64,000 nt of DNA from Streptomyces sp. NBC_01750 (lineage in GTDB: Bacteria; Actinomycetota; Actinomycetes; Streptomycetales; Streptomycetaceae): contig NZ_CP109137.1 in the NCBI RefSeq assembly GCF_035918095.1, positions 620,001 through 684,000 on the forward strand, written 5' to 3'. The notes beneath the pieces are model-generated. The model was not told where the DNA came from. It worked only from the letters and a program-made list of their open reading frames with translations, and did no database searches. Below, one piece after another: positions 13,176 to 62,145 of this stretch; positions within the stretch are counted from its first letter, which is position 1, and every line of letters begins with the position of its first letter. Made by a program: the position numbers and the translations under genes.

Positions 13176-13248
13176 GCCCACCATCATGCGCCGCACCGAT
13201 ATCGAACGCGATGGGAAAACCGACGTCCCCGGGGTGCGGCGGCTGGAA

Positions 13249-14505: not shown

Positions 14506-14520
14506 GGCCCTGCCCCCTGA

Positions 14521-37020: not shown

Positions 37021-37032
37021 GCGTCCTCCGAC

Positions 37033-41539: not shown

Positions 41540-42343
41540 TCAGCGAAAGGAAGGCGCCAAGCCCCCGGCGGGGTCGGCCCGCAGGATGGCCTCCTGGGCG
41601 TGCCGCAGCGGCGGGCCGGGTTCGATCCCGAGCTCTTCCCTGATGATCTTCCGGACCCTGCGGTACACGCCGAGCGCGTCGCTCTGCCGGCCCACCCGGT
41701 ACAGAGCGACCATCAACTGCCGGTGGAAGGGCTCCCGCAGCGGATGCTGGACCACCAGGCCCTTGAGTTCCTCGATGACGGCGTAGTGGCGGCCGAGAGC
41801 CATGGCGGATTCGATATTCAACTCGATGCAATTGAGCCGTTTCTCCTCCTCCACGGCCGCAAATGAGTTGATCTCCAGAGAACCTGCAATACCATCCAGG
41901 ACAGGCCCCCGCCACATGGCGAGGGCCTGTCCGAGATGCTCCGACGCGGCCAGGTGGTCAGCCGCGAAGTAACGGGATCTGCCGCTTTCGTAGAGTTCGT
42001 CGAACAGCCGGACGTCGAGCTGCGCCTTACTGACATTGAGAATGTAACCGGGCGACACCGTAATGATCGGCGAGATCCTTCCGGGTTCGCTGAGGAGTTT
42101 CCGTAATTGCGACACATAGACGCGCAGGCTCGCGGTCGCCGAGCGCGGCGGCTGCTGCTCCCACAGCTCGGCGACCAGCTTGTCCCCCGGTACGGTCTCG
42201 CCCGCCCGGACGGCCAGGAGGGCCAGCAGCTTGGCGATCTTCGGTGGCGCCGGCGTCAGGTCGACCCCGCCGCGGGTCACCCTCAGCCGGCCGAGCACCT
42301 CATAGCGCAGCGACTGGCCGTTTTGCGCAGAGTGCAGGGACAC
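41540..42343 (-). CDS. SARP-family pathway activator with a TTA codon
   Basis: 267 residues from GTG 42343 with AGGGGG five bases upstream. Residues 10-100 are an OmpR-like winged helix (LRYEVLGRLRV, LLALLAVRAGETVPGDKLV, SLRVYVSQLRKLLS); residues 105-260 are the bacterial transcriptional activation domain (LFDELYESGRSRYFA, GPVLDGIAGS, LREPFHRQLMVALYRVGRQ, YRRVRKIIREELG). Such proteins bind heptamer repeats and switch on antibiotic clusters. The leucine in SQLRKLL is encoded by TTA at 42104-42106, so the gene depends on the bldA tRNA. It is the likely activator of the adjacent PKS region. Confidence 0.92.
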   Translation of the reverse strand: MSLHSAQNGQSLRYEVLGRLRVTRGGVDLTPAPPKIAKLLALLAVRAGETVPGDKLVAELWEQQPPRSATASLRVYVSQLRKLLSEPGRISPIITVSPGYILNVSKAQLDVRLFDELYESGRSRYFAADHLAASEHLGQALAMWRGPVLDGIAGSLEINSFAAVEEEKRLNCIELNIESAMALGRHYAVIEELKGLVVQHPLREPFHRQLMVALYRVGRQSDALGVYRRVRKIIREELGIEPGPPLRHAQEAILRADPAGGLAPSFR

Positions 42344-42372
42344 GTAAACCCCCTGAATGCGTGTCACGCATT

Positions 42373-42457
42373 CGATCGTTACCAATCCCCCGTGTGCTCC
42401 CTGATGCCGCATGGAGTACACGCTTGCCAATAAACAGCCTAGCGCGGCGATCGTTAC
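42373..42457. repeat. CGATCGTTAC direct repeat upstream of the SARP gene
   Basis: Two exact 10-bp copies at 42373-42382 and 42448-42457, 75 bp apart, in the AT-rich leader of the SARP gene. They may be binding sites for autoregulation or an upstream regulator. Confidence 0.4.
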
Positions 42458-42556
42458 GTGGTCATTAAATGAAAGATAACAGCCGAGATGAGGTCCGAAT
42501 GTGCTATTTCCAGCCATTGAATCAGCTGGAATTCAATTGTTGAAGCGGTAGCGACG

Positions 42557-42597
42557 GAGGCGGCCCGCTCGGGAGAATCCCCTTCGCGGGCCGCCTC
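42557..42597 (-). terminator. 12-bp terminator after the hydrolase gene
   Basis: GAGGCGGCCCGC pairs with GCGGGCCGCCTC around a 17-base loop, 22 bp beyond the leftward stop at 42619. Confidence 0.75.
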
Positions 42598-42618
42598 TTG
42601 TCCTGGCAGGTACGACGG

Positions 42619-43836
42619 TCAGGTAACGGGCACCCGGTCAGGGGCGAGAGTCTCGTCCAGCCAGGAGAACAGCCGGTCGTGGTAGAGACCCATGGCTCCC
42701 GAGTGGCAGTGTGCGCCCCCGCCTTCGTCCGCGGTGAAGACGTGCAGCGTCTTGGCGCTGTTCAGCCCCGTGTACACCTTCTTCGCGTGTTCCAGACCGG
42801 CGAAGAACATGTCCTCCTCGGCGTCGAGCACGAGCACGGGACAGCGCACCTGTCCCACGACCTCCGAAAGGTTGAAGGCCGGCATGCGGCGGAGCAGTTC
42901 GGCGGGCGTATCGACGCCGAACGTCCACAGTGCCTGCCGCAGCAGCCAGCGGGTGAAAGTCTGCTGGACCGCGATCCCGTACATCACGGGATTGGCGAAG
43001 TCGTCGCAGCCCTGCTCGACCCACTCCAGCACGAATTGGGGCAGCGCCACGACATCACCGAGCTGCCAGACCGCGTCGTGGGCCACGCAGCCTGCCAGCC
43101 GGTGCTCGAACGCCGCGGCGCGTACGGCCAGCAGACCACCGAGACTGGTGCCGATCAGCGCCAGACGCTCGGCATCCACGCCCGGCTGAGCCAGCGCGAA
43201 GTCCACAGCCGGGGCGACGACGTTCTCCCAGTCGGGCCTGAAGGTGAGGCCTTGTTCGCGCAGCACCGAGCCCTGTCCCGGCCCTTCGATGCAGAGGCAG
43301 TGGTAACCGCGTGCCACTGCGGCGGCCGCGACGAAGAAGTAGCCCTCTTCGAGTGTGGAGTCGATCCCGCCGTGGTGAATGATGGTGGGCCGTGGCCCGG
43401 CGGAGTCGTCGGCCCGGTAGAAGTGGCCCGGCAGCGAACCGTTCTCGTACGGGATGCGGACGAACTGCGGTGGGCGCTCCATCAGTTCGGCGGCCTGGGT
43501 GAACGTGTCCTTGGAGAGCCGCATCAGCCGGGCGGCCTCGGGGTCGTGGGTGGGGTCGTCGCGCAGGAAGAACTCGGCCGTCCGGTAGTAGTTGTGCGCG
43601 CGCAGCAGTGCGGCACGGGCGTCGACGGTCCGCTTCTCACCGAGTGCCGCCGTGCCCAGCCGGTGTACGCGCTCGGCCATGGCGGTCCACTCGCGCCGCC
43701 AGGCGTCGGTGTCGCCGTCCTGGATCCGCGAGGCGACGGCGATGACCTCGCCGAGCTGTGCACCGCCGAGGTCGGCGTAACCGGCGGCGCGCAATGCCTC
43801 GTAATCGAAGGCAGGGTCGTCGAAGAGGAATTTCAT
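42619..43836 (-). CDS. Alpha/beta hydrolase (FrsA / C-C hydrolase-like)
   Basis: 405 residues from ATG 43836 with AGGAG eight bases upstream. An N-terminal helical cap of about 140 residues (MKFLFDDPAFDYEALRAAGY, LRAHNYYRTAEFFLRDDP) precedes the hydrolase core: HHGGIDS oxyanion region, IGTSLGGLLA nucleophile elbow, VLDAEEDMFF acid, GGGAHCHSG histidine. The cap-plus-core plan is that of 2,6-dihydroxypseudooxynicotine hydrolase and FrsA-like proteins. It may trim or cleave a 1,3-diketone. It lies 125 bp after the TetR gene on the same strand. Its first residues recur in a short ORF at 62056. Confidence 0.83.
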   Translation of the reverse strand: MKFLFDDPAFDYEALRAAGYADLGGAQLGEVIAVASRIQDGDTDAWRREWTAMAERVHRLGTAALGEKRTVDARAALLRAHNYYRTAEFFLRDDPTHDPEAARLMRLSKDTFTQAAELMERPPQFVRIPYENGSLPGHFYRADDSAGPRPTIIHHGGIDSTLEEGYFFVAAAAVARGYHCLCIEGPGQGSVLREQGLTFRPDWENVVAPAVDFALAQPGVDAERLALIGTSLGGLLAVRAAAFEHRLAGCVAHDAVWQLGDVVALPQFVLEWVEQGCDDFANPVMYGIAVQQTFTRWLLRQALWTFGVDTPAELLRRMPAFNLSEVVGQVRCPVLVLDAEEDMFFAGLEHAKKVYTGLNSAKTLHVFTADEGGGAHCHSGAMGLYHDRLFSWLDETLAPDRVPVT

Positions 43837-43961
43837 GGCTGCGGCTCCTGGGTCGAATGTGGTGCTCCAATGCCCTGGATCGGGCGTGTTGCGTGACTGA
43901 TCTGTGCGTGCCGAGAGTGGCGCCGGTCCTGCGTAGGCTGAGGTGGGGGTGGGGGGAATGC

Positions 43962-44660
43962 CTACCGGGGTTCGGGGTGAGCCCTCGTCCCGTTGAGGAA
44001 GGTGTCGACGATCGACTCGGCGAACGCGGCGGACTCCACCGGTCGTTGCCGGAGGATCAGCCGGGAGAGCATCGGTCCGGTGAGCAGTTCGATGGCCTGG
44101 TCCACGTCCAGGCCCGGACGCAGCTCTCCGCTGTCCATGCCTTCGCGCAGCGCCCGGCGCAACGCGTCCCGCCGCGCGGCGACCACCGAATTCTCGAACC
44201 GCTCGACCAACTGCGGGCGGCGCACCGCCTCGCCGAGCAGTCCGGCGAGCAGACGGTGCAGATTGGTGTCCTGACCCCGGCTGCGGATCTGGTCGACCAG
44301 GCTCACCAGCCGGTCCCGCAGCAGGAGTCCGTCCAGCGGCGGGACGGGGAGGTCGAGGCTGCTCAGGGCGGCGAGTACCAGTTCTTCCTTGTTGCGCCAG
44401 CGGCGGTAGATGGTGGCACGGGCGACCGAGGCCCGCTGCGCCACCAGGTCCATGGACAGGGCGCTGAAGCTGCACCCTTCGCCGAGCAGGGCGAGTGTGC
44501 TCTTCAGGATCGCCCGGTCCGCGGCGGGATCGCGCTGGCGGCCGCCCCGGGCGGTACGCACCGGAACGGCATCGGGCCCGCGCCGGTCCGGGGACGCGGA
44601 TATGGACCGGAGGCCGTCGGGCGTGTCGCCCTCGGCCTCCGGCTGAACGTGTGCCGGCAT
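43962..44660 (-). CDS. TetR-family regulator of the adjacent exporter
   Basis: 232 residues from ATG 44660, directly after the exporter stop (TGA then ATG). A disordered N-terminus of about 45 residues precedes the helix-turn-helix: FSALSMDLVAQRASVARATI, YRRWRNKEELVLAAL. The C-terminal part (LLAGLLGEAVRRPQLVERFE, SRLILRQRP) is the ligand and dimer domain. It likely represses the exporter operon and responds to the pathway product. A candidate operator is the inverted repeat at 46344-46377. Confidence 0.88.
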   Translation of the reverse strand: MPAHVQPEAEGDTPDGLRSISASPDRRGPDAVPVRTARGGRQRDPAADRAILKSTLALLGEGCSFSALSMDLVAQRASVARATIYRRWRNKEELVLAALSSLDLPVPPLDGLLLRDRLVSLVDQIRSRGQDTNLHRLLAGLLGEAVRRPQLVERFENSVVAARRDALRRALREGMDSGELRPGLDVDQAIELLTGPMLSRLILRQRPVESAAFAESIVDTFLNGTRAHPEPR

Positions 44661-46259
44661 TCAGACCTCCGTGGTGTGGTCGGCTCTTGCCGCTTCCTGG
44701 ATGTCGGAGCGGTCCGCACTCCTGCGAAGGGGCAGGAGCAACAGGCTGACGAGGGCGCCGAGAAGGGTGACTCCAGCGGCGACCAGAGCGGTGACATGCA
44801 TGGCGGACACGAACGAGTCGACGGCCCCAGCCGCAAGCCCGGACCCGCGCGGGCCGAGCGAATCGGCGACGGCCAGCGTGCTTTCGACGGACTCCTCGGC
44901 CCGGTCGCGGACTGCGCCCGGCAGGTCCGCCAGTCGGCCGGCCACCTCGGAGCGATAGACAGTGGACAGGACCGAGCCCAGCACGGCGACCCCTAGAGCG
45001 CCGCCGACCTGGCGGAACGTGGTGTTGACGGCCGAGCCGGTGCCCGCCCTCTCGCGCGGCAGGGCGGACATGACCGCGGTCGTGGCGGGTGGCATCACGC
45101 ACGCGATGCCGACGCCCAGGACGAAGAAGACGGATTCCAGCAGCCACAGTTCGGTGTGCTCGTCGATGGTGGCGACGGTGAGAAACGCGAGTGTGGTCAG
45201 CACCATGCCGGTGACGCACACCGGGCGGATCCCGATCCGCTTGGCCACGAGACTGGCCGGCGGGGAGAAGGCCAACTGGGCCACGGCCAGGGGCAGCAGG
45301 CAGTACCCGGCCTCCAGTGGAGACCATCCGCGCACGCTCTGCAGATAGAAGACGAGGAAGAAGGTCGCACCGAGCAGCGCGAAGAACACCAGGCCGATGA
45401 CAGTCACCGCCGCCGAGAAACGCGGGATACGGAAGAGGGCTATGTCCAGGGCGGGACGGCGGGTTCGCCGCTCCCAGGCGACGAAGGCGGCCAGCACGGC
45501 GAGCCCGCCGAACAGGGGCCCCCACACCTGGGCCGCCGCCCAGTCGTCCGATTCACCGCCCTTGATGACGCCGTACACCAGCAGGGTCAGGCCGACGACG
45601 GACAGGGCGACGCCGACCGGGTCGAAGCCGCCGCGTCGCGGGTCGCTGGACTCCGGCACGACGAGGAGAGCGGCGACGGCGCCGACCACGACGATCGGGA
45701 TGTTGATCAGGAAGACCGAGCCCCACCAGAAGTGTTCGAGGAGTGCGCCACCGGCTATCGGGCCGATGGCGACGGCGAGGCCGGCCGCGCCGGCCCAGAT
45801 GCCGACGGCCTTGGCATGCTCCGCGGGTGGGAAGACGTTCATGATGATCGCCAATGTCGCGGGCATCGCCAGCGCGCCGCCGACACCGAGTCCGGCGCGG
45901 GCGACGATCAGCTCGTCGGCGCTGCCCGCGTATGCGGACCACAGCGAGCAGGCGCCGAAGACCACGAGCCCGGCCACCAGCGTGCGCTTGCGGCCCCAGC
46001 GGTCGGCGAGCACGCCGGTGGTGAAGAGCAGCGCGGCGAAAACGAGCGTGTAGGAGTCGACCGACCACTGCAGCTCGCTCTGCGAGGCGCCCAGGCCGAT
46101 GGGTTCGGGCTGAGCCAGCGTCTTCAGTGCCACGCTCAGTATTGATGTGTCGAGGACCACGAGCAGGAGGCTGACGAGCAGGACGCCCAGTACCCACCAG
46201 CGGCGGGCGTCGGGGGCGGGGAGCTGCCCGGCGGTACGGAGTAGGGGCTGTGCTGTCAC
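44661..46259 (-). CDS. DHA2-type MFS multidrug exporter
   Basis: 532 residues from GTG 46259 with GAGGAG eight bases upstream; a TTG six codons earlier is poorer. Fourteen membrane helices in the DHA2 pattern: motif C near GIWAGAAGLAVAIGPIAGG, motif A GVLADRWGRKRTLVAG, LDTSILSVALKTL in helix 1. These proton-driven pumps export drugs and antibiotics. Followed without a gap by its TetR, it is the probable self-resistance and export gene of the polyketide region. Confidence 0.9.
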   Translation of the reverse strand: MTAQPLLRTAGQLPAPDARRWWVLGVLLVSLLLVVLDTSILSVALKTLAQPEPIGLGASQSELQWSVDSYTLVFAALLFTTGVLADRWGRKRTLVAGLVVFGACSLWSAYAGSADELIVARAGLGVGGALAMPATLAIIMNVFPPAEHAKAVGIWAGAAGLAVAIGPIAGGALLEHFWWGSVFLINIPIVVVGAVAALLVVPESSDPRRGGFDPVGVALSVVGLTLLVYGVIKGGESDDWAAAQVWGPLFGGLAVLAAFVAWERRTRRPALDIALFRIPRFSAAVTVIGLVFFALLGATFFLVFYLQSVRGWSPLEAGYCLLPLAVAQLAFSPPASLVAKRIGIRPVCVTGMVLTTLAFLTVATIDEHTELWLLESVFFVLGVGIACVMPPATTAVMSALPRERAGTGSAVNTTFRQVGGALGVAVLGSVLSTVYRSEVAGRLADLPGAVRDRAEESVESTLAVADSLGPRGSGLAAGAVDSFVSAMHVTALVAAGVTLLGALVSLLLLPLRRSADRSDIQEAARADHTTEV

Positions 46260-46322
46260 GGATTCCGCTCCTCGCAAGAAGAGGGTGCTGCGTGAACTGC
46301 CGTCTGATGCCGTGCGGTTCGC

Positions 46323-46351
46323 ACGTTAGGCCCGACTCTCCATCGAGTCAA
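46323..46351 (-). promoter_or_regulatory. Promoter for the exporter-TetR operon
   Basis: On the minus strand TTGACT, 17 bases, TAACGT; a good vegetative promoter 64 bases from the GTG start. The -35 lies inside an 8-bp inverted repeat. Confidence 0.6.
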
Positions 46352-46377
46352 TGCCGTATCGAAACAACGTTGACTCG
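46344..46377. promoter_or_regulatory. Inverted repeat CGAGTCAA...TTGACTCG
   Basis: 8-bp perfect arms with an 18-bp spacer overlapping the -35 of the exporter promoter. Plausible operator for the neighbouring TetR. Confidence 0.45.
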
Positions 46378-46387
46378 TATCTGGCCA

Positions 46388-47128
46388 TCAAAGGCCGGCC
46401 GCCGGTCCGACCGCGCACGCGACAACGAAGTGCTGTGCGACGACGCCGCTTTGGAAGTGCCAGTCCGGTGCTGTCCGGCAGCGCCAGAGAGTGGCGTCCC
46501 GCCCGACCCGGCGCGGCTGAAAATACATACTCGGGAAGTCCAGCCCCAACCCGAGGCCCAGGGCCTTCGCATACGCCTCTTTGAGCGTCCAGAGCCGCAC
46601 GAGCATGCGGTTGCGCTCGGCGTACGGGAGCAGCCGCAGGGCGGCGAGCTCCTCCGGATGGCAGACCTTCTCCGGCAGCCCCGGCGTGAGCAGCAGCCGG
46701 TCCTGCGCCTCCACGTCCACGCCGATCCGGAACCTGCCGGCCACACCGACCACCAGGAGACCGGCGGTGTGACTGATGCCCCCGTCGAAGCCCGCCGGCT
46801 CGCGCACGCCGGGGCGCCCGCGTGCGCCCCGCCCCAGCACCACGCCCGCAGGACCGATGCCGGCCGCGGCGGCCACCGCCTGGCGCAGCAGCAACCGGGA
46901 GCCGAACAGCCGTGCCCGCGCCGTGGGTTCACGCATCGCCCGATACCTCGGCCAGTCAGCGCCGAGCAGCTCACGGGCGGGTGCGCACGGTGCGGACGCC
47001 CAGTCGGTCAGCCGTCCGTGACACACCGCGTACCCGTGGCGCCGCACGTTCTCGCCGACGGCACCCCAGGGTCCCGAACCGGGAAGTAGAGGTCCGACCG
47101 AAAAGGGCACCACACCTGGTTCCGCCAC
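46388..47128 (-). CDS. Sfp-type 4'-phosphopantetheinyl transferase
   Basis: 246 residues from GTG 47128 with AGGAGGG five bases upstream; earlier in-frame starts have no ribosome site. It attaches the phosphopantetheine arm of CoA to carrier proteins. Marks: GGISHTAGLLVVGV, GVDVEAQDRLL (metal-binding acidic pair) and LWTLKEAYAKALGLGLGLD. Placed divergently from the fatty acyl-AMP ligase operon, it should activate the two free-standing ACPs and the PKS ACP. Confidence 0.9.
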   Translation of the reverse strand: MAEPGVVPFSVGPLLPGSGPWGAVGENVRRHGYAVCHGRLTDWASAPCAPARELLGADWPRYRAMREPTARARLFGSRLLLRQAVAAAAGIGPAGVVLGRGARGRPGVREPAGFDGGISHTAGLLVVGVAGRFRIGVDVEAQDRLLLTPGLPEKVCHPEELAALRLLPYAERNRMLVRLWTLKEAYAKALGLGLGLDFPSMYFQPRRVGRDATLWRCRTAPDWHFQSGVVAQHFVVACAVGPAAGL

Positions 47129-47409
47129 CGCAGCCCTCCTCTCGTTCCCCACGCGCTCCGCCTCGGCCGCCTCATCCGGGAACGGCACCGAGTGCCAACA
47201 CACGGCGTACACAAGGATTTACCCACTGTTCTATCGCCTCCGGGCGGCACCGTCCTGGAAACGCTGGACCTGCGACGTGCGCATCAAGCGCGCCTTTACG
47301 ACTCCTTTTCACCGCCCTCCAACGATGGAGGAACCGGGTGGCACTTGGTGCCGCCCCGTCCCATATCCCGTACCGGCGGAGCAACCGCCGACGAGCGACA
47401 GGGGAAGAG
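47129..47409. promoter_or_regulatory. Divergent promoter region, PPTase / biosynthetic operon
   Basis: No gene. It must carry the main promoter of the rightward biosynthetic operon. A GGGTGGCAC-TTG-GTGCCGCCC hairpin lies at 47337-47357, about 50 bases before the FAAL start, in its leader. Confidence 0.45.
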
Positions 47410-49209
47410 ATGCGCAGAACCTTGACGGACGCCGTACGCGCCGGCGTGGAACAGCACCCCGAGCGGGCCGCGTTCGTGTACCTGCACGAAGACGGCCGGA
47501 GCATGCGGCCCGAGCGGCTCACGTACAGGGAACTGGACCGCAGGGCCCGCCTGGTGGCCACCCGGCTGCGCGAGGCGGCCAGGGGAGACGACTCACGCCC
47601 GGTGCTGCTCCTCTATCCGCCCACACTGGACTTCGTCACCGCATTCCTGGGCTGCTTCTACGCCGGGCGCACCGCCATCCCCGCGCCGCTCCCCGATGAG
47701 CCCGGTGAACGGCTGGCCCGGGTGCGCGGCATCCTGCGGGACGCCTCGGCGGGCGCTGTGCTGACACTTCCCGAACACCGGCATGCCCTCGCCGCCTGGC
47801 TGACCGCCGCCGGAGAACGGGATGTGGTGTGCCTCGCGGCCGGCGGCGACGACGCCACGGAGCCGGACGTCTGGTTCCCGCCACACGTACGGGACGAGGA
47901 CCTGGCCTTCCTGCAGTACAGCTCGGGCTCCACCAGCGAGCCCAAGGGAATCATGGTCACGCACGCCAATCTGGCCGCCAACCAGGAAGCCATCCAACGG
48001 GCCATGGACACCCGCAAGGGCGTCGTCACCGGCAGTTGGCTGCCGCTCTACCACGACATGGGCCTCATCGGGATGACGCTGCACCCCCTGTGGATGGGCG
48101 GCACGAGCGTACAGATGTCACCCATCTCGTTCATCAAGCAGCCGCACCGCTGGCTGCGCATGATTCACGACTACCGGGTCGAGGGCACCGCCTCACCCAA
48201 CTTCGGCTACGAGCTGTGCACCCGCCGGGTCACCGAGGAACAGTCCGCCGGACTCGACCTGTCCACCCTGCGAGTGGCGCTCAACGGGGCCGAGCCCGTA
48301 CGCGCCGGCACGATCCGCGCCTTCAGCGCGCGCTTCGCCGCCAACAGACTTCGCCCCCAGGCCATGCTCCCCTGTTACGGACTGGCCGAGAACACCCTGC
48401 TGGTCTCCGGCGGCGACACCGCAGGACCGCACGTCGAACTGGTCGTGGATGCCCACGGTCTGGAGCAGGACGAGCTGCAGCCCGCGCAACCCGGCCGGGC
48501 AACCAGGACCCTGGTCGGCTGCGGCCGCCCGAAGGGCACCGAGGTCCTCCTCGTGGACCCGATGACCCTCGGGGTCCTGCCGGACGGCCGGGTCGGCGAG
48601 ATCTGGCTGCACGGCCCCTCGGTGACCGCCGGCTACTGGAACCGCCCCCAGGAGACCGCCGAGTCCTTCCGGGCGTCGACCGCGGACGGACGCTCGGGGT
48701 ACTTCCGCACCGGCGACCTCGGCGCCCTGCTCGGCGGGGAGTTGTACGTCACCGGCCGGATCAAGGAGATGCTCATCCACCACGGCCGCAATCTCTACCC
48801 CCAGGACATCGAACATGCCGTGCAGGACTCGGGGCCCGCGTTCCGCCGTGGCGGCGGCGCCGTGTTCACCGTCTCGGACACGGAGGCCGAGCGCGCCCAC
48901 GTGGTGGTGGTCCAGGAGATCCGTCCGCGCACCTACGACGAGCCGGACCTGCCGGGACTCGCCGCTTCGGTACGGGAGTTGGTGAGCCGCGAGTTCCAGC
49001 TGCCCGCCGCGAGCGTGGTGCTGGTACGACCCGGCGCGATCCGCAAGACCACCAGCGGCAAGACGCAGCGCACCCTCATGCGGCAGCTCTTCCTCGACGG
49101 CGCCCTGCACGTACTGCACCAACGCCTGGAACGACCGGTCGAGGCCCTGATCGACAGCCGCGCCGAGGACGACCCGGAGTCCGCCCCGCTGGCCGCCCCC
49201 GGCCGCTGA
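47410..49209 (+). CDS. Fatty acyl-AMP ligase (FAAL)
   Basis: 599 residues from ATG 47410. It activates a fatty acid as acyl-AMP and passes it to an ACP. ANL-family motifs: YSSGSTSEPKGIMVTH (P-loop), LPLYHDMGLIG, CYGLAENTLLVSGG, YFRTGDLG, GRIKEMLIHHGRNLYPQDIE and the C-terminal catalytic lysine in RKTTSGKTQR. HDMGLIG and HGRNLYPQDIE are typical of FAALs rather than acyl-CoA ligases. First gene of the rightward operon, followed by an ACP after 32 bp, its probable acceptor. Confidence 0.92.
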   Translation: MRRTLTDAVRAGVEQHPERAAFVYLHEDGRSMRPERLTYRELDRRARLVATRLREAARGDDSRPVLLLYPPTLDFVTAFLGCFYAGRTAIPAPLPDEPGERLARVRGILRDASAGAVLTLPEHRHALAAWLTAAGERDVVCLAAGGDDATEPDVWFPPHVRDEDLAFLQYSSGSTSEPKGIMVTHANLAANQEAIQRAMDTRKGVVTGSWLPLYHDMGLIGMTLHPLWMGGTSVQMSPISFIKQPHRWLRMIHDYRVEGTASPNFGYELCTRRVTEEQSAGLDLSTLRVALNGAEPVRAGTIRAFSARFAANRLRPQAMLPCYGLAENTLLVSGGDTAGPHVELVVDAHGLEQDELQPAQPGRATRTLVGCGRPKGTEVLLVDPMTLGVLPDGRVGEIWLHGPSVTAGYWNRPQETAESFRASTADGRSGYFRTGDLGALLGGELYVTGRIKEMLIHHGRNLYPQDIEHAVQDSGPAFRRGGGAVFTVSDTEAERAHVVVVQEIRPRTYDEPDLPGLAASVRELVSREFQLPAASVVLVRPGAIRKTTSGKTQRTLMRQLFLDGALHVLHQRLERPVEALIDSRAEDDPESAPLAAPGR

Positions 49210-49241
49210 GACCACCCGGACCCCCAAGGGAGAGGTACGCC

Positions 49242-49562
49242 ATGCACATCGTCCCCGAAACCCGCCCCCAGAATCTGGACATCGCCTTGTCCGGCCTGAC
49301 CGCTCCGGACCTCGAGCAGTGGCTCACCGAACGTGTTGCCTTCCATCTGCACCGGTCCGCCGACGAGATCGACCCGACCACGCCGCTCGCGGACTACGGC
49401 ATCGACTCGGTAGCGGCGATCGGCATCTGCGGCGAGATCGAGGAGCGGCATCAGCTGCCGGTCTCCCCGACGATCGCCTACGACTTCCCCACGGTCCGCG
49501 CGATCAGCGCACATCTCGCCGAACGCCTCGCCGACGGCAGCAGCGGAGGAGGGGCGTCATGA
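49242..49562 (+). CDS. Acyl carrier protein, FAAL partner
   Basis: 106 residues from ATG 49242 with GGGAGAGG upstream. The phosphopantetheine site is Ser56 in DYGIDSVAAIGICGEIE. About 40 residues precede the helical core (LTAPDLEQWLTERVAFHL). Its stop overlaps the PKS start (ATGA). It should receive the fatty acyl chain from the FAAL and hand it to the ketosynthase. Confidence 0.9.
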   Translation: MHIVPETRPQNLDIALSGLTAPDLEQWLTERVAFHLHRSADEIDPTTPLADYGIDSVAAIGICGEIEERHQLPVSPTIAYDFPTVRAISAHLAERLADGSSGGGAS

Positions 49563-52500
49563 CCGAGCGCGAACCGGTTGCGGTCGTCGGCCTCGACTGC
49601 CGCTTTCCGGGTGCCCGCGACGCCAAGGAGTTCTGGGATCTTCTGATGGGAGGGCGGGACAGTACCAGCCGCGTCCCGGAACAGCGCTGGGACGCGGACC
49701 GCTACCACATGGCGCCCTCGGCCGCCCCCGCCAGTACGTCCGAGGCCCGGCCGCCCGGCCGCAGCAACACCGTGCGCGGTGGCTTCATCGACGATCCGGA
49801 CGCCTTCGACCCTCAGTTCTTCGGGATCTCACCACGCGAGGCGGCCGCCATGGACCCGCAGCAGCGGCTGCTGCTGCAGTGTTCCTGGCGCGCCATCGAG
49901 GACGCGGCGGTCGCCCCCGAGGATCTGGCCGGCACCGGAACCGGAGTGTTCGTCGGAGTCATGGCCAACGAATGGGCGTATCTGCAGCTGTCGGACTACG
50001 ACAGGATCACCGCCCGCTACGGCTCCGGAAACGGCTACTTCATGGGCGCCAACCGGGTCTCGTACCATCTCGACCTCAAAGGCCCGAGCCTGGCGGTGGA
50101 CACGGCCTGCTCCTCGTCGCTCGTCGCCGTCCACCTCGCGGCAGGCGCACTGCGCGCCGGCGACTGCGACTACGCCCTGGCAGCGGGCACCAACCTGATC
50201 ATGACGCCCGTCATCAATATCTTCTACGCCCAGGCCGGTCTCTCGGCGCCGGACGGACGATGCAAGCCCTTCAGCGCATCGGCCGACGGAATCGGACGGG
50301 CCGAGGGCGTCGCGGTCCTGGTGCTGCGCCGGCTCAGCGACGCTCTGGCCGACCGCCAGCCCGTGTACGCCGTGCTGAGCGGGAGCGGCGTCAACCAGGA
50401 CGGGCGGAGCAATGGGATCACCGCCCCCAATCGCTGGGCACAGCAGCAACTCATCGAGGGTGTCTGGCAGTCGGCCGGGGTCGGCGCGGACGACATCCGC
50501 TTCATCGAGGCGCACGGCACCGGCACCCTGCTCGGCGACATGATGGAGGCGCAGGCACTCGGTCACTTCGCCAGTGACCGCCGCGCCGGGAACATCGCGT
50601 TGGGTTCGGTCAAGAGCAACTTCGGGCATGCCGAGGGAGCGGCCGGGATTGCCGGGCTGGTCAAGACCGTGCTCGCGCTGCATCACCGGACCGTGCCCCC
50701 CAGTCGTTTCGCCGACGACGAGAACCCGCAACTCCAGCTTGCCGACCGGCGGCTGTCGCTGCTCAAGTCCCCGCTGCGGCTTCCCTCCGGCACCGTGCAC
50801 GCCGCTGTCAGCAGCTTCGGCATCGGCGGCACCAACGCGCACGCGGTCATGTCCTCCGCGCCTCGCGCGGTACACCGCTCAGGCGACAGGGCGCCGGGGG
50901 TGTTCACCGTGTCCGCCCGTTCCGCGCGGCAACTGCGCCCCAACCTGCTGGCCCAGGCCGATGCCCTCGCCCGCCTGCCCGAGGACCGGCTGGCACAACT
51001 GTGCTGGACCAGCAACCGGGTCAAGTCGCGGCTGCCGCACCGGGTGTCCGTCGCCGCCGCGGGCCTGCCCGAACTGGTGGCGGGGCTGCGCGAGGCGGCG
51101 GAGCGATCGGCCGATGACGGCGGGCCGGCCGGCGGCGCGACGCGGCGGACGGTACCCGCGGTGGCGTTCGCCTTCACCGGGCAGGGCGCGCAGTACCCCC
51201 GTATGGCCGCCTCCTGGTACGCCGAGTCCCCCGTCTACGCACGGCTGTTCGACGAGATCGACAAAATTCTCGCCGGCCACCTCGGTCTTTCGGTGCGCGA
51301 CGCCGTGCTCGACGGCGACCCGGGCATCGACCGTACGGGCCTGGCCCAGCCCGCGCTGTTCGCGGTGGAGTACGCGATGGCGGGCACCCTCGTCGAGGCG
51401 GGGATCAGGCCCTCGTTCGTCATCGGCCACAGCGTGGGTGAGTTCGCCGCGGCGTGCACGGCCGGTGCGCTCGACCCCGGGGACGCAGCCAGACTGGTCG
51501 CGCGCCGGGCCTCGCTGATGGAGGCCCTCCCCGACGGGGGCGGCATGCTCTCGGTGCCGCTGGACGCCGTCGGCGTCGAGGCGCTGCTGAGCGAGGGTAC
51601 GCGGCTGTGCATCGCCGCGGTCAATGCCCCGGACAGCACGGTGGTCGCCGGCGATCTCGCCGAACTGGACGCGCTGCGTGCCGCGTTGGCCGACCGGGGT
51701 TTGGCCTCGCGTCCGCTGGCCGTCTCGCACGCCTTCCATTCGCCGCTGATGCGGCCCGTCGTGGAGGAGTTCCGCCGGGAGGCGGACGTACCGGTGCGCC
51801 GGCCCGCAGTGCCGTACTTCTCGACCGTGTACGGGCACCGGATGGGCGATGACGAGACCCTGGACGCGGACTACTGGACGCGGCAGATCACCGAGCCCGT
51901 ACGGTTCGCCGAGGCCGCGGCCGCCTTGTTCGCCGCCGGAGCCACTCACATCGTGGAGATCGGCCCGCGGGCCGCCCTGACCCCGCTGCTCGCCCGCCTC
52001 AAGCCGGCCACCGGCCGCCCGGTGAGCTGCCATGCGGCCCACCCGGGGCACCGCGCGCCGGGACACCGGCTGCACCAGCTGCTGGGGGAGCTGTGGTGCG
52101 CAGGCCTCGCTCCCGACTGGGACGCGCTGTACCAGGAGGCGGACCGGGTGCCGCGCCGGCTGCCGCCATATCTCTTCGACGACACCTTCCGCGCCTGGCG
52201 CTCCGCCGACGCCCCAGAACTGCCCGTGTCCACTTCCCCCGCAACGGACGCGGCAGCCGCGGAACCGCCGACGGCGGACCGCGGAGAATCGTGCCCGCCG
52301 GCCCGCGCCGGTGAACCCCCGCACCCCGTTTCCGAGGTGACGCACCGTCTGGTCTGCCAGGTCGGCGGGCACGAACCGTCCCAGGTGCAGGGCCGTTCAC
52401 GCCTGCACGAGGACCTGGGCTTCGACTCGATCCAGGTGATGGAGCTCAAGACCCGTATCGAGGACGAACTGCCCCGGCTCGGCAGCCTTCCGATCGAGGA

Positions 52501-52594
52501 GCTGCTCGAGAGTCTGGAGACCGTGGGCGACCTCACCCGCTATCTGCGGAGGCGTCTGCTGACACCGTCCGTACCGGAAGGAAGGCTCTCATGA
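49559..52594 (+). CDS. Type I PKS module, KS-AT-ACP
   Basis: 1011 residues, ATG 49559 overlapping the ACP stop. Ketosynthase residues 5-430: Cys184 in VDTACSSSLVA, histidines in EAHGTGT and KSNFGHAEGAAG. Acyltransferase about residues 535-830: GQGAQYP, Ser625 in GHSVGEFAAA, and HAFH (724-727), the malonyl-CoA signature. ACP with Ser957 (DLGFDSIQVMELK). No KR, DH, ER or TE domain, so each added unit keeps its beta-keto group. It should take the fatty acyl chain from the upstream ACP and add malonyl unit(s) to give a 3-oxoacyl-ACP. Confidence 0.93.
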   Translation: MTEREPVAVVGLDCRFPGARDAKEFWDLLMGGRDSTSRVPEQRWDADRYHMAPSAAPASTSEARPPGRSNTVRGGFIDDPDAFDPQFFGISPREAAAMDPQQRLLLQCSWRAIEDAAVAPEDLAGTGTGVFVGVMANEWAYLQLSDYDRITARYGSGNGYFMGANRVSYHLDLKGPSLAVDTACSSSLVAVHLAAGALRAGDCDYALAAGTNLIMTPVINIFYAQAGLSAPDGRCKPFSASADGIGRAEGVAVLVLRRLSDALADRQPVYAVLSGSGVNQDGRSNGITAPNRWAQQQLIEGVWQSAGVGADDIRFIEAHGTGTLLGDMMEAQALGHFASDRRAGNIALGSVKSNFGHAEGAAGIAGLVKTVLALHHRTVPPSRFADDENPQLQLADRRLSLLKSPLRLPSGTVHAAVSSFGIGGTNAHAVMSSAPRAVHRSGDRAPGVFTVSARSARQLRPNLLAQADALARLPEDRLAQLCWTSNRVKSRLPHRVSVAAAGLPELVAGLREAAERSADDGGPAGGATRRTVPAVAFAFTGQGAQYPRMAASWYAESPVYARLFDEIDKILAGHLGLSVRDAVLDGDPGIDRTGLAQPALFAVEYAMAGTLVEAGIRPSFVIGHSVGEFAAACTAGALDPGDAARLVARRASLMEALPDGGGMLSVPLDAVGVEALLSEGTRLCIAAVNAPDSTVVAGDLAELDALRAALADRGLASRPLAVSHAFHSPLMRPVVEEFRREADVPVRRPAVPYFSTVYGHRMGDDETLDADYWTRQITEPVRFAEAAAALFAAGATHIVEIGPRAALTPLLARLKPATGRPVSCHAAHPGHRAPGHRLHQLLGELWCAGLAPDWDALYQEADRVPRRLPPYLFDDTFRAWRSADAPELPVSTSPATDAAAAEPPTADRGESCPPARAGEPPHPVSEVTHRLVCQVGGHEPSQVQGRSRLHEDLGFDSIQVMELKTRIEDELPRLGSLPIEELLESLETVGDLTRYLRRRLLTPSVPEGRLS

Positions 52595-53613
52595 CCGCCC
52601 CCACCGCACATCTGGTCTCGGTCGGCACCTGCCTTCCGGGCGAACCGGTGGACAACGCGACACTTGCGAAACTCGTCGGCGTCGACGAGCGGTGGGCCGA
52701 GATGTTCATCGGTAACACCAGCAGGTACTTCGCCGTCGACCTGGCGACCGGTCACGTCCGGCACAGCCTCGCCGACATCGCGGCGACCGCCGGGGACCGG
52801 GCTCTGACACAAGCGGGCCTGGAACCGGGGGACATCGACTGCATCGTCATGGGCACGGCCACCCCGGACCAGCTGATGCCCGCCACCGTGAACCTTGTGG
52901 CGGATCGTCTCGGCATCGACAACGTTCCCACCTACCAGCTCCAGTCCGGCTGCGCCGGGGCCGTTCAGGCACTCGACGTGGCCCGCACCCTGCTGATCGC
53001 CGGGCGCTGCGCGACCGTGCTGGTGATCGGCGGGGATGTGTGCGCCAAACACCTGGAGACCGACTTCGACCCCGGCTCCCGTACCTCCGCCGAACTCGTC
53101 AACTATGTGCTCTTCGGCGACGGAGCGGGTGCCGCGGTGCTCACCGCGGAGCCCCTCGGCCACGGCATCGCGATCCGCCAGGTGCTCAACCGGCTGGTGG
53201 GCCTGGGCAAGAAGCCGGGGCAGGTCATCGACTGGTTCGGCCTCGGCGACCGGCACAGCGACCGGACGGTGATTTCCGAGGACTACAAGGCCATCGAAGC
53301 GGCCGTGCCCGGCCTGGCGTCGCAGATGTTCTGGGAACTCCTCGACGACCTGGGCTGGGCTGCCCACCAGGTGGACTACCTGCTCCCGCCCCAGCTCTCC
53401 GGCCGGATGAGCGACCGTATCTCCGCGGAGATGCCCGCCCCGGACGCCCGGCGCATCAATGTCGTGCGCACCGTCGGCAACAACGGCAACGCCCTGCCGT
53501 TCCTCCAGCTCGCCGAGCTGACCGAGCAGTGGCAGGGCCCCGGACGCGCCGTCGCGGTCGCGGTCGAGTCCAGCAAGTGGATCAAGTCCGGCATCGCCCT
53601 GGAGCGCACATGA
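52591..53613 (+). CDS. KASIII-like condensing enzyme without the usual histidine
   Basis: 340 residues, coupled to the PKS by ATGA. FabH fold: Cys121 in LQSGCAGAVQA, FGDGAGAAVL, and Asn297 in TVGNNGNALPFLQLAEL. Where FabH has the catalytic His in PHQAN, this protein reads LLPPQLS, so the triad is Cys-Pro-Asn. In tetronate pathways a KASIII-like protein joins a glyceryl-ACP to a beta-ketoacyl-ACP, forming both the C-C and the C-O bond. The neighbour FkbH-like gene and the second ACP fit this. It could also be a plain acyltransferase. Confidence 0.87.
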   Translation: MTAPTAHLVSVGTCLPGEPVDNATLAKLVGVDERWAEMFIGNTSRYFAVDLATGHVRHSLADIAATAGDRALTQAGLEPGDIDCIVMGTATPDQLMPATVNLVADRLGIDNVPTYQLQSGCAGAVQALDVARTLLIAGRCATVLVIGGDVCAKHLETDFDPGSRTSAELVNYVLFGDGAGAAVLTAEPLGHGIAIRQVLNRLVGLGKKPGQVIDWFGLGDRHSDRTVISEDYKAIEAAVPGLASQMFWELLDDLGWAAHQVDYLLPPQLSGRMSDRISAEMPAPDARRINVVRTVGNNGNALPFLQLAELTEQWQGPGRAVAVAVESSKWIKSGIALERT

Positions 53614-55565
53614 CCACCACGGAAGACACAACGGCACACACCACCCTCACCACCGCGGGCGACAGCGGCCCCTGGCGGGATCCGGAAGCGCTGCGCACTC
53701 TGCGCAGCACATACGCCGCCGGCCGGCTGGAAGCCGAGTACGCATCGGTCCGTGCCCTGCTCGCCCGTCTGCCGGAGAGCGATCTTCCGGCGGCGGGTCA
53801 GCTGCTGGCCCGCCTCGACCGCGAGGCGGTGGGCCGGCTCCACCCGGACCTGCCGGTCGTCACCGTCGCCGTCACCGGCCAGTCCACGGTCGCACCGCTC
53901 GTCGGCCCGCTCACCGCCGAACTCGCCCGGCACGGGCTGCTGCTCGACCCGTTGGTCTCCCCCTACGGCTCGTACCTACACGACCTGCTGGGGCCCGCAG
54001 GGCCCGGCGACGGCCCCCGGCAGCCGCTGCTGACCCTGTGCCTCCTCGACCCGCACACGGTCTTCGAGCAGGTGCCCGTGCCCTGGCGGGTCGAGGACGT
54101 CGAGGCTGCGGTCCGGGAGAGACTGGCTCTCCTCGGCAAGGCCGTGAGCACCCACCAGGACGGCGGCCGGGGGCTCTTGGTACTCAACACCGTGCCACTG
54201 CTGCACCACCACACCCACCAGCTGGTCGATCTGCGCTCCCGGGCCCGGCTGGGCACGGTGTGGCGCGAGTTCAACAGCGGGCTGCTCGCCCTCGCCGGGC
54301 AGCACCCCGGGGTGGTCGTCGTCGACCTCGATCCGCTGGTGAGCCTGGGCACGCCCGCCTACGAGCCACGCACCGGCCAGTACGCCAAGGCCAGACTGGC
54401 CGAGGGACTGCTCACCGGCTATGCCAGGGAGGTCGGCCCTCTCGTGCTGGGCCGCCTGGGCAGGACCCGCAAATGCCTGGTGCTGGACCTGGACGGCACG
54501 CTGTGGGGCGGAGTGCTCGGTGAGGAGGGCCCCGACGGCATAGAACTCGGCGCCGGATTGCGCGGGGAGGCCTTCCTGGAGTTCCAGCGGGTGCTCGCCC
54601 AGCTCGGCTCGCAGGGCGTGCTGCTCGCCGTGAGCAGCAAGAACGACGCGGAGGCGGTCCGCGAGGTGCTGCGCAACCATCCATCGATGCTGCTGCACGA
54701 GGACGACTTCGTCTGTGTCAACGCCAACTGGTCGGCCAAGCACGACAATCTGCGCGACATCTCCGAGAGGCTGGGCCTTGGCCTTGACAGCTTCGTCTTC
54801 GTCGACGACAGCCTCTTCGAGTGCGGTCTGGTCAGGGAGCAACTGCCCGAGGTCGCCGTGGTCCATGTCGACCGGGAGCCGGCCCTGCATCCGTCCGCGC
54901 TGCTCGCCGACGGCTGGTTCGACCTGCCGCAGCTCACCGATGAGGACCGCGAACGGACGGGCCGCTACCGTACGGAGGCCAGGCGGCAGGAGTTCCGCGA
55001 GGACATCGGCTCCTACCAGGACTACCTGGAGGGGCTCGGAATCGAGGTCACGGTGCGGCCGGCGGCCCCGTCGGAGGTATCACGGGTTTCCCAACTCACC
55101 CTGCGCACCAACCAGTTCCACCTCGCAACCGAGCGCATGCAGGTTCCCCAGGTGCTTCAGTGGACCGCACTCCCGGGCCACAGCGCGCTCGTGGTGTCCG
55201 CCCGTGACCGGTTCGGCGACCACGGCCTCGTCGGTGCGGTGTTCCTGCGCCGCGACGCGGAGCAACTGCACATCGACAACTTCGTGCTGAGCTGCAGGGT
55301 TTTCTCCCGCGGCATCGAGAGCGGATGCCTGAGCGCGGTACTCGACCACGCCCGCGCCACCGGCGCCCGGGGCGCGACCGGCCGCTATCTGCCCACGTCC
55401 AGGAACACCGGCTTCGCCTCCTTCTACACCGACCACGGCTTCGCCCCCGCCGGGCCGGACCCGTCCGTCCCCGGCGTCGCCGTCTTCCACCACGACCTGC
55501 GCGACATCGCCCCCGCCCCCGCCCATCTGCGACTGCACACCACCTTCGAGGGAGACCGGACATGA
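53610..55565 (+). CDS. FkbH-like glyceryl-ACP synthase (HAD-IIIC)
   Basis: 651 residues, start overlapping the previous stop. Residues 75-270 form an SGNH-like N-terminal part, residues 285-430 a HAD-IIIC domain with the nucleophile aspartate in VLDLDGTLWGGVLGE (Asp293, Asp295), VSSKNDAEAVREVL and FVFVDDSLFE, and the end is an acetyltransferase-like domain (VSQLTLRTNQFHLATERM, SCRVFSRGIES). FkbH proteins take 1,3-bisphosphoglycerate, dephosphorylate it and load glyceryl on an ACP. The next gene is such an ACP. No acyl-CoA dehydrogenase or O-methyltransferase is present, which argues against methoxymalonate. Confidence 0.92.
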   Translation: MTTTEDTTAHTTLTTAGDSGPWRDPEALRTLRSTYAAGRLEAEYASVRALLARLPESDLPAAGQLLARLDREAVGRLHPDLPVVTVAVTGQSTVAPLVGPLTAELARHGLLLDPLVSPYGSYLHDLLGPAGPGDGPRQPLLTLCLLDPHTVFEQVPVPWRVEDVEAAVRERLALLGKAVSTHQDGGRGLLVLNTVPLLHHHTHQLVDLRSRARLGTVWREFNSGLLALAGQHPGVVVVDLDPLVSLGTPAYEPRTGQYAKARLAEGLLTGYAREVGPLVLGRLGRTRKCLVLDLDGTLWGGVLGEEGPDGIELGAGLRGEAFLEFQRVLAQLGSQGVLLAVSSKNDAEAVREVLRNHPSMLLHEDDFVCVNANWSAKHDNLRDISERLGLGLDSFVFVDDSLFECGLVREQLPEVAVVHVDREPALHPSALLADGWFDLPQLTDEDRERTGRYRTEARRQEFREDIGSYQDYLEGLGIEVTVRPAAPSEVSRVSQLTLRTNQFHLATERMQVPQVLQWTALPGHSALVVSARDRFGDHGLVGAVFLRRDAEQLHIDNFVLSCRVFSRGIESGCLSAVLDHARATGARGATGRYLPTSRNTGFASFYTDHGFAPAGPDPSVPGVAVFHHDLRDIAPAPAHLRLHTTFEGDRT

Positions 55566-55801
55566 CCACCGCCATCGCGGACAGCGCGGCGTTCTGCACC
55601 CTCCTGGAAGAGGAACTCGGCCTGCACATCACGCCCGAAGACCTCGACCGCCCACTGGACGAGGTCCCCGAATGGGACTCGGTGCACCTGCTGCGCCTGG
55701 TCACCGTCGTGGAAAGCCTCACCGGCCGGTCCGTGCCGGTGACCGGGCTGCTGGAGGCAGTCACCTTCCGGGAGATGTACGACGTGGTGGTCCGCACATG
55801 A
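55562..55801 (+). CDS. Acyl carrier protein for the glyceryl unit
   Basis: 79 residues, start overlapping the FkbH stop. Phosphopantetheine site Ser40 in VPEWDSVHLLRLVTVVE; helices before and after match small discrete ACPs paired with FkbH proteins. The expected cargo is D-glyceryl. Its stop region overlaps the thioesterase start (ATGA). Confidence 0.9.
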   Translation: MTTAIADSAAFCTLLEEELGLHITPEDLDRPLDEVPEWDSVHLLRLVTVVESLTGRSVPVTGLLEAVTFREMYDVVVRT

Positions 55802-56607
55802 CGACCACCGCCCCGACGTCGACGGCCTGCCTCGTCCGGGCGCCCCGCAAGGACGCCCGGCTGCGGCTGTTCTGCTTCCACCACGCGGGTGGCGGGGCCT
55901 CGTTCTTCGCCCCGTGGCCCGCCCGGGTGGCGCCCGAAATCGACGTCCTGCCGGTGCAGTTGCCCGGCCGGGAGTCACGCTACCGCGAGCCCCGCTTCCG
56001 CGATGCCCGGACGCTGGCCGAGGCCCTCGAACGCGAACTCGCCCCGTGGCTGGACCAGCCGTACGCCGTCTACGGGCACAGCATGGGCGCCCTGGTTGCC
56101 TTCGCGCTGACGGCAGCCCGAATGCGGGGCGGGGGCAGCGGGCCGCAGACGCTGTTCGTCGGCGCCTACGGTGCCCCGCACCTCACTCCGCCGCTGCCGC
56201 CGGCCGACCGGTACGCGGACGTGGAACTCGCCCGCTTCCTGGTGGGCATCGGAGGGCTGAGCCCACAGTTCCTCGGCCGGGACGACTGGCTGCGGGCCCT
56301 GCTTCCGATCGTCCGGGACGACTTGCGGATCTGCGCCAGCCACCAGCAGGCGGGGCTGCCTGATCCGGACGACGAGGAGGCGGGGCTGCCGCTCGACATC
56401 CACGCCTTCGCCGGTGAGGACGACCGGCTCGTGAACCCCGGCGCCGTGTGGTCCTGGGAGCAGTACGCCCAGCACTTCCGCATGTCCACCGTACCGGGCG
56501 GCCACTTCTTCCCGCGCGAGGAGCCCGGACCGTTCTTCGACGTACTCAACCGCTCGCTGGCCGAGATCATCACGGAGCGGGGGGAACCACACGGGGAACC
56601 TGTGTGA
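55798..56607 (+). CDS. Type II thioesterase
   Basis: 269 residues, coupled to the ACP. Alpha/beta hydrolase of the RifR/GrsT class: LFCFHHAGGGASFF, LPVQLPGRESRY, Ser95 in VYGHSMGALVAF, the acid in FAGEDDRLV and His in VPGGHFFPRE. It clears wrongly loaded ACPs or releases chains. Last gene of the rightward operon; its final 38 bases overlap the end of the convergent MBL gene. Confidence 0.9.
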   Translation: MTTTAPTSTACLVRAPRKDARLRLFCFHHAGGGASFFAPWPARVAPEIDVLPVQLPGRESRYREPRFRDARTLAEALERELAPWLDQPYAVYGHSMGALVAFALTAARMRGGGSGPQTLFVGAYGAPHLTPPLPPADRYADVELARFLVGIGGLSPQFLGRDDWLRALLPIVRDDLRICASHQQAGLPDPDDEEAGLPLDIHAFAGEDDRLVNPGAVWSWEQYAQHFRMSTVPGGHFFPREEPGPFFDVLNRSLAEIITERGEPHGEPV

Positions 56608-62076: not shown

Positions 62077-62094
62077 CGGAACGGCACCGTTCCG
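62077..62094. promoter_or_regulatory. TetR operator copy 1
   Basis: CGGAACGG-CA-CCGTTCCG, perfect 8-bp arms, with an extra CGGAACGG half-site just to the left. It lies 20 bp from the start of the leftward operon. Confidence 0.75.
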
Positions 62095-62125: not shown

Positions 62126-62145
62126 ACGGAACGCAACCGTTCCGT
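62126..62145. promoter_or_regulatory. TetR operator copy 2
   Basis: ACGGAACG-CAAC-CGTTCCGT, 8-bp arms, with an extra TTCCGT half-site to the right, mirror-image to copy 1. It lies 19 bp before the tetR ATG and should give autorepression. Confidence 0.75.

Follow-up and report, generated by a model that had tools for sequence, protein, structure and literature searches.

A gene cluster that probably directs the synthesis of an RK-682-type 3-acyl-5-hydroxymethyl tetronic acid was found in a 64,000-nucleotide stretch of a Streptomyces chromosome (G000:C1:620001-684000, referred to below as the window; the genome has 8.98 Mb in 3 contigs), and we put the probability of this assignment at about 0.78. 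Its core of six genes encodes a fatty acyl-AMP ligase (FAAL), an acyl carrier protein (ACP1), a single-module polyketide synthase (PKS) with ketosynthase (KS), acyltransferase (AT) and ACP domains, a KASIII-like protein of the family here called KS3, an FkbH-like protein and a second carrier protein (ACP2). Comparison of sequences gave the gene set, its order, its conservation, the family residues and the absence of an Agg4/Agg5 gene pair, and from these the substrates, chain length, product and order of steps are predicted. The FAAL would adenylate a free fatty acid and load it onto ACP1, and the PKS would add one malonyl unit and leave the beta-keto group unreduced. FkbH would charge ACP2 with a glyceryl unit derived from 1,3-bisphosphoglycerate, and KS3 would then link the beta-ketoacyl and glyceryl units by forming one C-C and one C-O bond, which would set the tetronate free. 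A type II thioesterase (TE) would clear stalled chains, a major facilitator superfamily (MFS) exporter would pump the product out, and with no acetylation or elimination afterwards the hydroxymethyl group would be kept. The biosynthetic core appears to be a further instance of known chemistry, offering a short and complete gene set for studying a fatty-acid-primed tetronate pathway, and the right-hand operon of the cluster looks like an open lead.

Core genes and their relatives

A preliminary description of this DNA, made from the letters alone, had recognised tetronate logic in the set of KS3, FkbH and small ACP genes, and both genomic linkage and published parallels support it. In a survey sample of 392 Streptomyces genomes, searches at E 1e-60 found KS3 at 71 places in 64 genomes and FkbH at 84 places in 74 genomes. 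An FkbH gene started within 15 kb of KS3 at 64 of the 71 places, and 63 of the 64 KS3 genomes carried both. Sixty-nine of the KS3 places were fetched as loci (L-numbers; G-numbers denote genomes), the window itself and a second end-copy in G237 being left out.

Published clusters were compared through their descriptions, for the most part excerpts of the papers. In the excerpts on the RK-682 cluster (rk) of Streptomyces sp. 88-682, the KASIII-like RkD, the FkbH-like RkE and the ACP RkF lead to a 3-acyl-5-hydroxymethyl tetronate. The rk minimal set (Sun et al.) likewise comprises six genes and may be the same core as that of the window, the functions of rkA and rkB apart, with KS3, FkbH and ACP at places 4 to 6. 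The agglomerin cluster (agg), as excerpted, shares the tetronate set and the acyl side chain, but it has the Agg4 acetyltransferase and the Agg5 eliminase, which form an exocyclic methylene, and the window has neither. In the abm cluster the three proteins have 343, 628 and 75 amino acids (aa), and deletion mutants no longer make the product (PMC5819245, in part); in aby they have 341, 622 and 78 aa and are assigned to tetronate formation (PMC3625739, in part), as is the set in mad. According to a review, again in excerpt, the set was present in all tetronate clusters sequenced by 2016. The window proteins, with 340, 651 and 79 aa, compare with 341-343, 622-628 and 75-78 aa in aby and abm. As far as the excerpts go, aby, abm and mad share a type II thioesterase and a SARP with the window, but they have large modular PKSs and Agg4/Agg5-type genes, whereas the window has a FAAL, one module and no such pair.

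The residues of KS3 fit the proposed reaction. Among 90 aligned family rows (85 distinct), Cys121, Pro267 and Asn297 were invariant, and Pro267 occupies the position of the catalytic His of FabH, so that KS3 does not have the Cys-His-Asn triad of FabH. All four FabH controls from the same genome keep the His (HQAN, which becomes PPQL in KS3), and the solved relative 5by7 (359 bits) shows the same letters in the alignment. The His of FabH serves decarboxylative condensation. Tetronate formation should need no decarboxylation, as a beta-keto thioester would already be a good carbon nucleophile, and Pro in place of His fits a condensation of this kind.

Loci and genomes that share the core of the window are called type A. 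A KS3 scan of GTDB contigs gave 11 loci, of which 10 were from Streptomyces at 83-88% identity, and further type A loci came from a plasmid of S. chartreusis and from the 392-genome sample (eight loci). Once loci from the same genome had been removed, 15 further genomes or plasmids of Streptomyces were left that carry the core (L009-L018, L034, L072-L079). Their proteins are 52-90% identical to those of the window, and in the KS3 tree type A forms a single clade supported at 100/100. Against three relatives, the window genes gave ratios of non-synonymous to synonymous change (pN/pS) of 0.19-0.67, indicating purifying selection. Given this recurrence and these ratios, the gene set is not due to chance.

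Priming and extension were assessed by Pfam and NCBIfam domain scans, which covered the cluster proteins at 39.2-64 kb. For the FAAL, the FAAL subfamily models scored best, all below their own cut-offs, and the nearest solved chains were FAALs or PKS loading ligases. In the 1011-aa PKS, Pfam found KS, AT, linker, thiolase-like and carrier domains and nothing else, in particular no ketoreductase, dehydratase or enoylreductase; its AT motif reads SHAFH, which we take to be a malonyl signature. These matches agree with the single unreduced extension, giving a beta-ketoacyl-ACP, that had been proposed at first. FkbH carries a long N-terminal extension ahead of its FkbH domain (residues 286-612); the N-terminal part of FkbH has been named NEX and tied to glycerate transfer in a study of 2025 (PMC12304814, in part). 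ACP2, encoded directly beside FkbH, falls slightly below the cut-off of the PP-binding model and has its serine in WDSVH.

Loading by a FAAL had also been put forward as a distinct variant, and the survey does not support this view, as a FAAL gene lies within about 10 kb at 48 of the 69 fetched KS3 loci and a cyanobacterial contig has the same gene order. Two acyl-CoA dehydrogenases accompany the FAAL at 28 of these loci (24 with Agg4, 4 with no Agg4 seen) and one dehydrogenase without Agg4 at 10; nine loci are type A, and one other has no dehydrogenase. Among the remaining 21 loci, 12 have Agg4 and Agg5 without a FAAL, eight have neither, in some cases where the contig stops short, and L012 is truncated. 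FAAL priming of KS3 loci is therefore common, not rare, in Streptomyces, and many Streptomyces FAAL clusters look like tetronate factories. FAAL loci outside type A such as L033, L036, L029 and L030 share FAAL, ACP, KS-AT-ACP, KS3, FkbH and ACP with the window, but differ in having one or two acyl-CoA dehydrogenases and, in many cases, Agg4/Agg5. Acyl-CoA dehydrogenases were considered as a constant component of FAAL tetronate loci and rejected, since type A has none. The cyanobacterial locus (L019, from a metagenome-assembled genome of Xenococcaceae) encodes a FAAL, two dehydrogenases, ACP, PKS, KS3, FkbH, ACP, Agg4, Agg5 and TE, at 38-55% identity; the order FAAL-ACP-PKS-KS3-FkbH-ACP is that of the window, with the extra genes interspersed. 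A literature search, with most subscription papers outside its scope, gave no match that combined "tetronate" with "FAAL" or "acyl-AMP ligase", and a FAAL review (PMC11837247) made no mention of the tetronate terms searched for.

In G237 the same KS3 gene lies near both ends of the linear chromosome (C1:53145-54146 and 9751167-9752168), and its FAAL cluster seems from these positions to be located in terminal inverted repeats.

Fate of the hydroxymethyl group and role of FkbH

Exomethylene formation requires an Agg4-type acetyltransferase and an Agg5-type eliminase, according to excerpts of the literature on mad and abm and of a review. KS3 relatives adjoin Agg4- and Agg5-like genes, and relatives outside type A carry both, as a PF00198 protein and an FrsA-like hydrolase (e.g. 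L033 and L028). Neither an Agg4-like (PF00198) nor an Agg5-like gene was found among the scanned cluster proteins of the window, and no Agg4-like gene was matched in the type A loci. An Agg5-like gene does lie between ACP2 and TE in ten type A genomes (14 loci), but the His of its DDVHG motif, which from the fold is probably catalytic, is lost in all 14 and kept in all 44 rows outside type A; in L072 the Ser is lost too. No Agg5-like gene was found between ACP2 and TE in the window, L016, L017, L018 or L077. In L009 and L010, the two loci where genes were called, the His-less gene (13393-14502 and 13429-14538, respectively) is preceded by a small open reading frame of 62-81 aa (13208-13396 and 13187-13432), at the place that Agg4 holds in relatives outside type A; the small frame of L010 had no Pfam match. 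The type A lineage shows a stepwise loss of the tailoring pair. As the pair is absent from the window and has decayed in sister lineages, the hydroxymethyl group should stay, in agreement with the preliminary description.

The product would instead be a 5-methylene tetronate of the agglomerin type if the alpha/beta hydrolase of the left arm acted as eliminase. That hydrolase is distantly similar to Agg5-like proteins (26-32% in partial alignments, with E 3e-6 to 4e-3 against a database of six sequences), and FAAL clusters with two acyl-CoA dehydrogenases carry Agg4-like and often Agg5-like genes. We nevertheless consider a 5-methylene product improbable, because the scanned cluster proteins of the window include no Agg4-like protein, and the hydrolase was rejected as a stand-in for Agg5 because in relatives it coexists with a separate Agg5-like gene and hence does not replace it.

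Grouping of FkbH with methoxymalonate enzymes had been named as an outcome that would speak against a tetronate. In a tree of 71 FkbH rows, built by a quick method and containing no named methoxymalonate FkbH, the window fell in a clade of 16 rows (15 type A and L012; SH-aLRT 100) nested among KS3-linked FkbHs; within this scope the outcome does not speak against a tetronate. Thirteen rows have no KS3 in the fetched stretch; seven of them form a separate clade, while L145, L146, L148, L149 and L151 stand among the KS3-linked rows, and the hosts of the last three (G189, G142 and G279) carry KS3 elsewhere in the genome. Row L139, with a branch length of 10, is uninformative. That FkbH and ACP2 make a hydroxymalonyl or methoxymalonyl PKS extender is highly improbable: FkbH and a discrete ACP also begin methoxymalonyl-ACP synthesis, according to excerpted literature, but the rest of that cassette (an O-methyltransferase and two dehydrogenases) is absent from the scanned cluster proteins, the AT is malonyl-type, KS3 belongs to a tetronate-linked family and FkbH groups with KS3-linked FkbHs.

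The length of FkbH was rejected as a mark of tetronate clusters, since FkbH-like proteins of about 605-650 aa also occur in loci without this KS3. Several such loci encode a neighbouring protein of about 340 aa whose identity to the KS3 of the window is no more than 17-22%; that of L142, one of nine taken, starts like a flavin enzyme and is not a KS. In L136, L137, L140, L141, L143, L144, L147 and L035 (17-21% to KS3), the FkbH and the protein of about 340 aa are mostly joined by a small ACP-sized gene, and the protein in L035 is annotated as KASIII-like. This set is possibly another glycerate-using pathway, to judge from its gene content.

Several points weigh against a tetronate of the RK-682 kind as the product. 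The assignment is comparative, not chemical, and the likeness to rk, agg, tmn and kij is one to published descriptions and not to the named proteins; a one-to-one match with rk is further opposed by a review legend, seen in excerpt, in which RkC is an ACP, the third gene of the window being KS-AT-ACP. The role given to FabH-type residues in tetronate KS3s is general background. At seven of the 71 places, the 15 kb around KS3 contain no FkbH: FkbH lies on other contigs in G044 and G277 and on the same contig at 40.8 kb, 70.3 kb and 7.1 Mb in G296, G189 and G142, and the other two are the KS3 genes of G363, a genome without FkbH at E 1e-60. Annotated neighbours of KS3 family members include large PKS clusters, and family membership alone is therefore no proof of this product. 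Finally, purifying selection acts on the His-less Agg5-like gene of the relatives (four pairs gave pN/pS of 0.36-0.49, and TE of the same pairs 0.30-0.41), which therefore has some role outside a simple story of decay; the protein probably does something else now, either as a pseudo-enzyme that has been conserved or in a new enzymatic role.

KS3 family members also occur in L032 (a plasmid of S. cattleyicolor), L131, L132 and L037, where no FkbH was seen up to about 10 kb away.

Cluster extent and the right-hand operon

Every gene named in the preliminary description, which spanned 41,540-56,607, is present, but the alpha/beta hydrolase and the regulator TetR1 of the left arm had been left out. 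The right boundary at 56,607 was set too early, for the genes of a metallo-beta-lactamase-fold (MBL) hydrolase, an acyl-CoA ligase, a thiolase, the transporter MFS2 and the regulator TetR2 (to 62782) accompany the cluster in its relatives. The cluster is thus judged to reach to about 62.8 kb with the right-hand operon included. It has three arms: a left arm on the minus strand from the SARP to the phosphopantetheinyl transferase (PPTase), a central arm on the plus strand from FAAL to TE, and a right arm on the minus strand from MBL to MFS2, with TetR2 divergent (Table 1). Five consecutive gene junctions, from ACP1 through TE, overlap by 4 bases.

Table 1. Genes and candidate operators of the cluster (window positions)
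Feature	Position	Strand	Basis or remark
SARP-type activator	41540..42517	-	Trans_reg_C and BTAD; conserved by the core in several relatives
Alpha/beta hydrolase, N-terminal cap, 405 aa	42619..43836	-	76-86% identical in relatives
TetR-family regulator TetR1	43962..44660	-	Domain scan
DHA2/EmrB-type MFS exporter	44661..46259	-	270.4 bits (cut-off 230.2)
Inverted repeat CGAGTCAA-N18-TTGACTCG, possible TetR1 operator	46344..46377	.	Pattern search
4'-Phosphopantetheinyl transferase (PPTase)	46388..47212	-	PF01648, 64.6 bits
Fatty acyl-AMP ligase (FAAL)	47410..49209	+	FAAL models best; nearest solved chains
ACP1, presumed fatty acyl acceptor	49242..49562	+	PF00550, 55.9 bits
Single-module PKS KS-AT-ACP, 1011 aa, malonyl-type AT	49559..52594	+	Pfam; AT motif
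KASIII-like (KS3), predicted tetronate-forming, 340 aa	52591..53613	+	Cys121, Pro267, Asn297
FkbH-like, predicted glyceryl-ACP synthase, 651 aa	53610..55565	+	TIGR01686, 302.8 bits (cut-off 146.65)
ACP2, presumed glyceryl carrier, 79 aa	55562..55801	+	PP-binding, 19.9 bits (cut-off 20.8); WDSVH
Type II thioesterase (TE)	55798..56607	+	PF00975, 115 bits
MBL-fold metallohydrolase, lactonase-like	56570..57424	-	HAHWDH motif
Acyl-CoA ligase, acetyl-CoA/acetoacetyl-CoA synthetase group	57503..59473	-	Nearest models and chains
Beta-ketothiolase, BktB-like	59473..60645	-	TIGR01930, 423 bits
MFS transporter MFS2	60645..61964	-	Nearest families sugar acid/phosphoglycerate import, far under cut-off
Palindrome CGGAACGGCACCGTTCCG, possible TetR2 operator 1	62077..62094	.	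Pattern search
Palindrome CGGAACGCAACCGTTCCG, possible TetR2 operator 2	62127..62144	.	Pattern search
TetR-family regulator TetR2	62231..62782	+	TetR_C_11, 112.4 bits; divergent from MFS2-thiolase-ligase-MBL operon

MBL, ligase and thiolase were found in all 14 type A genomes whose contig covers the right side. In the survey sample, MBL matched at E 1e-30 in 12 genomes, ten of them type A (78-100% identity) and two, G061 and G308, distant (46-47%); at the stricter E 1e-150 the ligase matched only in the same ten. In G182, the eleventh genome of type A, both genes are missing from the whole assembly (95% complete), and its cluster contig (L012, 6.5 kb) stops inside FkbH. Right-arm genes thus co-occur with the cluster in 10 of 11 type A genomes against 0 of 381 others (Fisher p 5e-19, uncorrected for kinship). 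As their close copies are confined to cluster carriers, MBL and ligase indicate that the right arm is part of the cluster. Other genes are less constant: PPTase and MFS2 were not seen in L016 and L077, where a second alpha/beta hydrolase takes the position of MFS2, and the MFS exporter was not seen in L009/L074, L013/L073 and L079. The right-hand MBL or thiolase had no match in the fetched loci with FAAL and dehydrogenase.

The NCBIfam models that fit MBL best were those for N-acyl homoserine lactonases, though its scores of 41-53 bits stay below their cut-offs of 325-390; among solved chains the best was 4v0h (5e-12), with lactonases among the nearest (E 1e-8 and weaker). The ligase was nearest to acetyl-CoA synthetases (E 2e-109) and then to acetoacetate-CoA ligase (E 5e-64), below all model cut-offs, and the thiolase passed TIGR01930 with BktB as nearest. 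For the alpha/beta hydrolase of the left arm, the closest chains were 3fnb and 2,6-dihydroxypseudooxynicotine hydrolase (E 3e-15), and fungal Yg1 proteins matched weakly. The latter hydrolase and Yg1 proteins act on C-C bonds beside carbonyls.

Candidate operators are also conserved. The palindrome pair CGGAACGNNNCCGTTCCG lies between TetR2 and MFS2. The genome has no other exact match to it, and four more places differ by one mismatch. The exact pattern was present in 8 of 154 fetched loci, namely the window's own (L154) and seven of type A, which are those that reach the region; none of the others has it. The inverted repeat upstream of the exporter operon matched once in the window with 0 expected, and its core was found exactly in 13 loci, all type A; L016, L017, L018, L072 and L077, type A loci that cover the region, are without the exact repeat.

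These data tentatively suggest that the right-hand operon serves turnover of the product. The importer-type MFS2 would take the tetronate up and the MBL lactonase would open its ring; the alpha/beta hydrolase would then cleave a C-C bond, the ligase would activate the freed beta-keto acid, and the beta-ketothiolase would return acyl-CoA and acetyl-CoA, with TetR2 sensing the tetronate level. That the operon under TetR2 re-imports and dismantles the tetronate in the reverse order of its assembly, the tetronate being a recyclable signal or metal carrier, draws on gene content, exclusive co-occurrence and operator conservation; we regard it as possible, with the odds against it. If true, acyl tetronates might act not simply as antibiotics but as signals or carriers of metal that bring their own off switch.

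Somewhat less probable still is a role of the operon in supplying precursors or salvaging aborted chains, in which TE would free the 3-oxo acid from stalled ACPs, the ligase would reactivate it and the thiolase would yield acyl-CoA and acetyl-CoA. The nearness of the ligase to acetyl-CoA synthetases, the broad beta-ketothiolase type of the thiolase and the presence of a type II thioesterase agree with salvage, and the co-occurrence of right arm and cluster fits it equally, but it leaves the lactonase-like hydrolase, the importer-like MFS and a private TetR with two operator-like palindromes unexplained.

A Gram-positive cluster of tetronate type that likewise has an MBL gene was seen on a plasmid of Pseudalkalibacillus (L031), where KS3, FkbH, ACP and an Agg4-like gene have genes for TetR, an MBL-fold hydrolase and an alpha/beta hydrolase upstream. 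Beyond the left edge of the cluster in the window, a chalcone/stilbene-synthase-like gene (37033-38088, with an ACP_syn_III_C match) stands beside two short minus-strand genes whose first residues resemble a methyltransferase-type membrane protein and a flavin enzyme; the region 35486-38088 is a possible separate type III PKS cluster.

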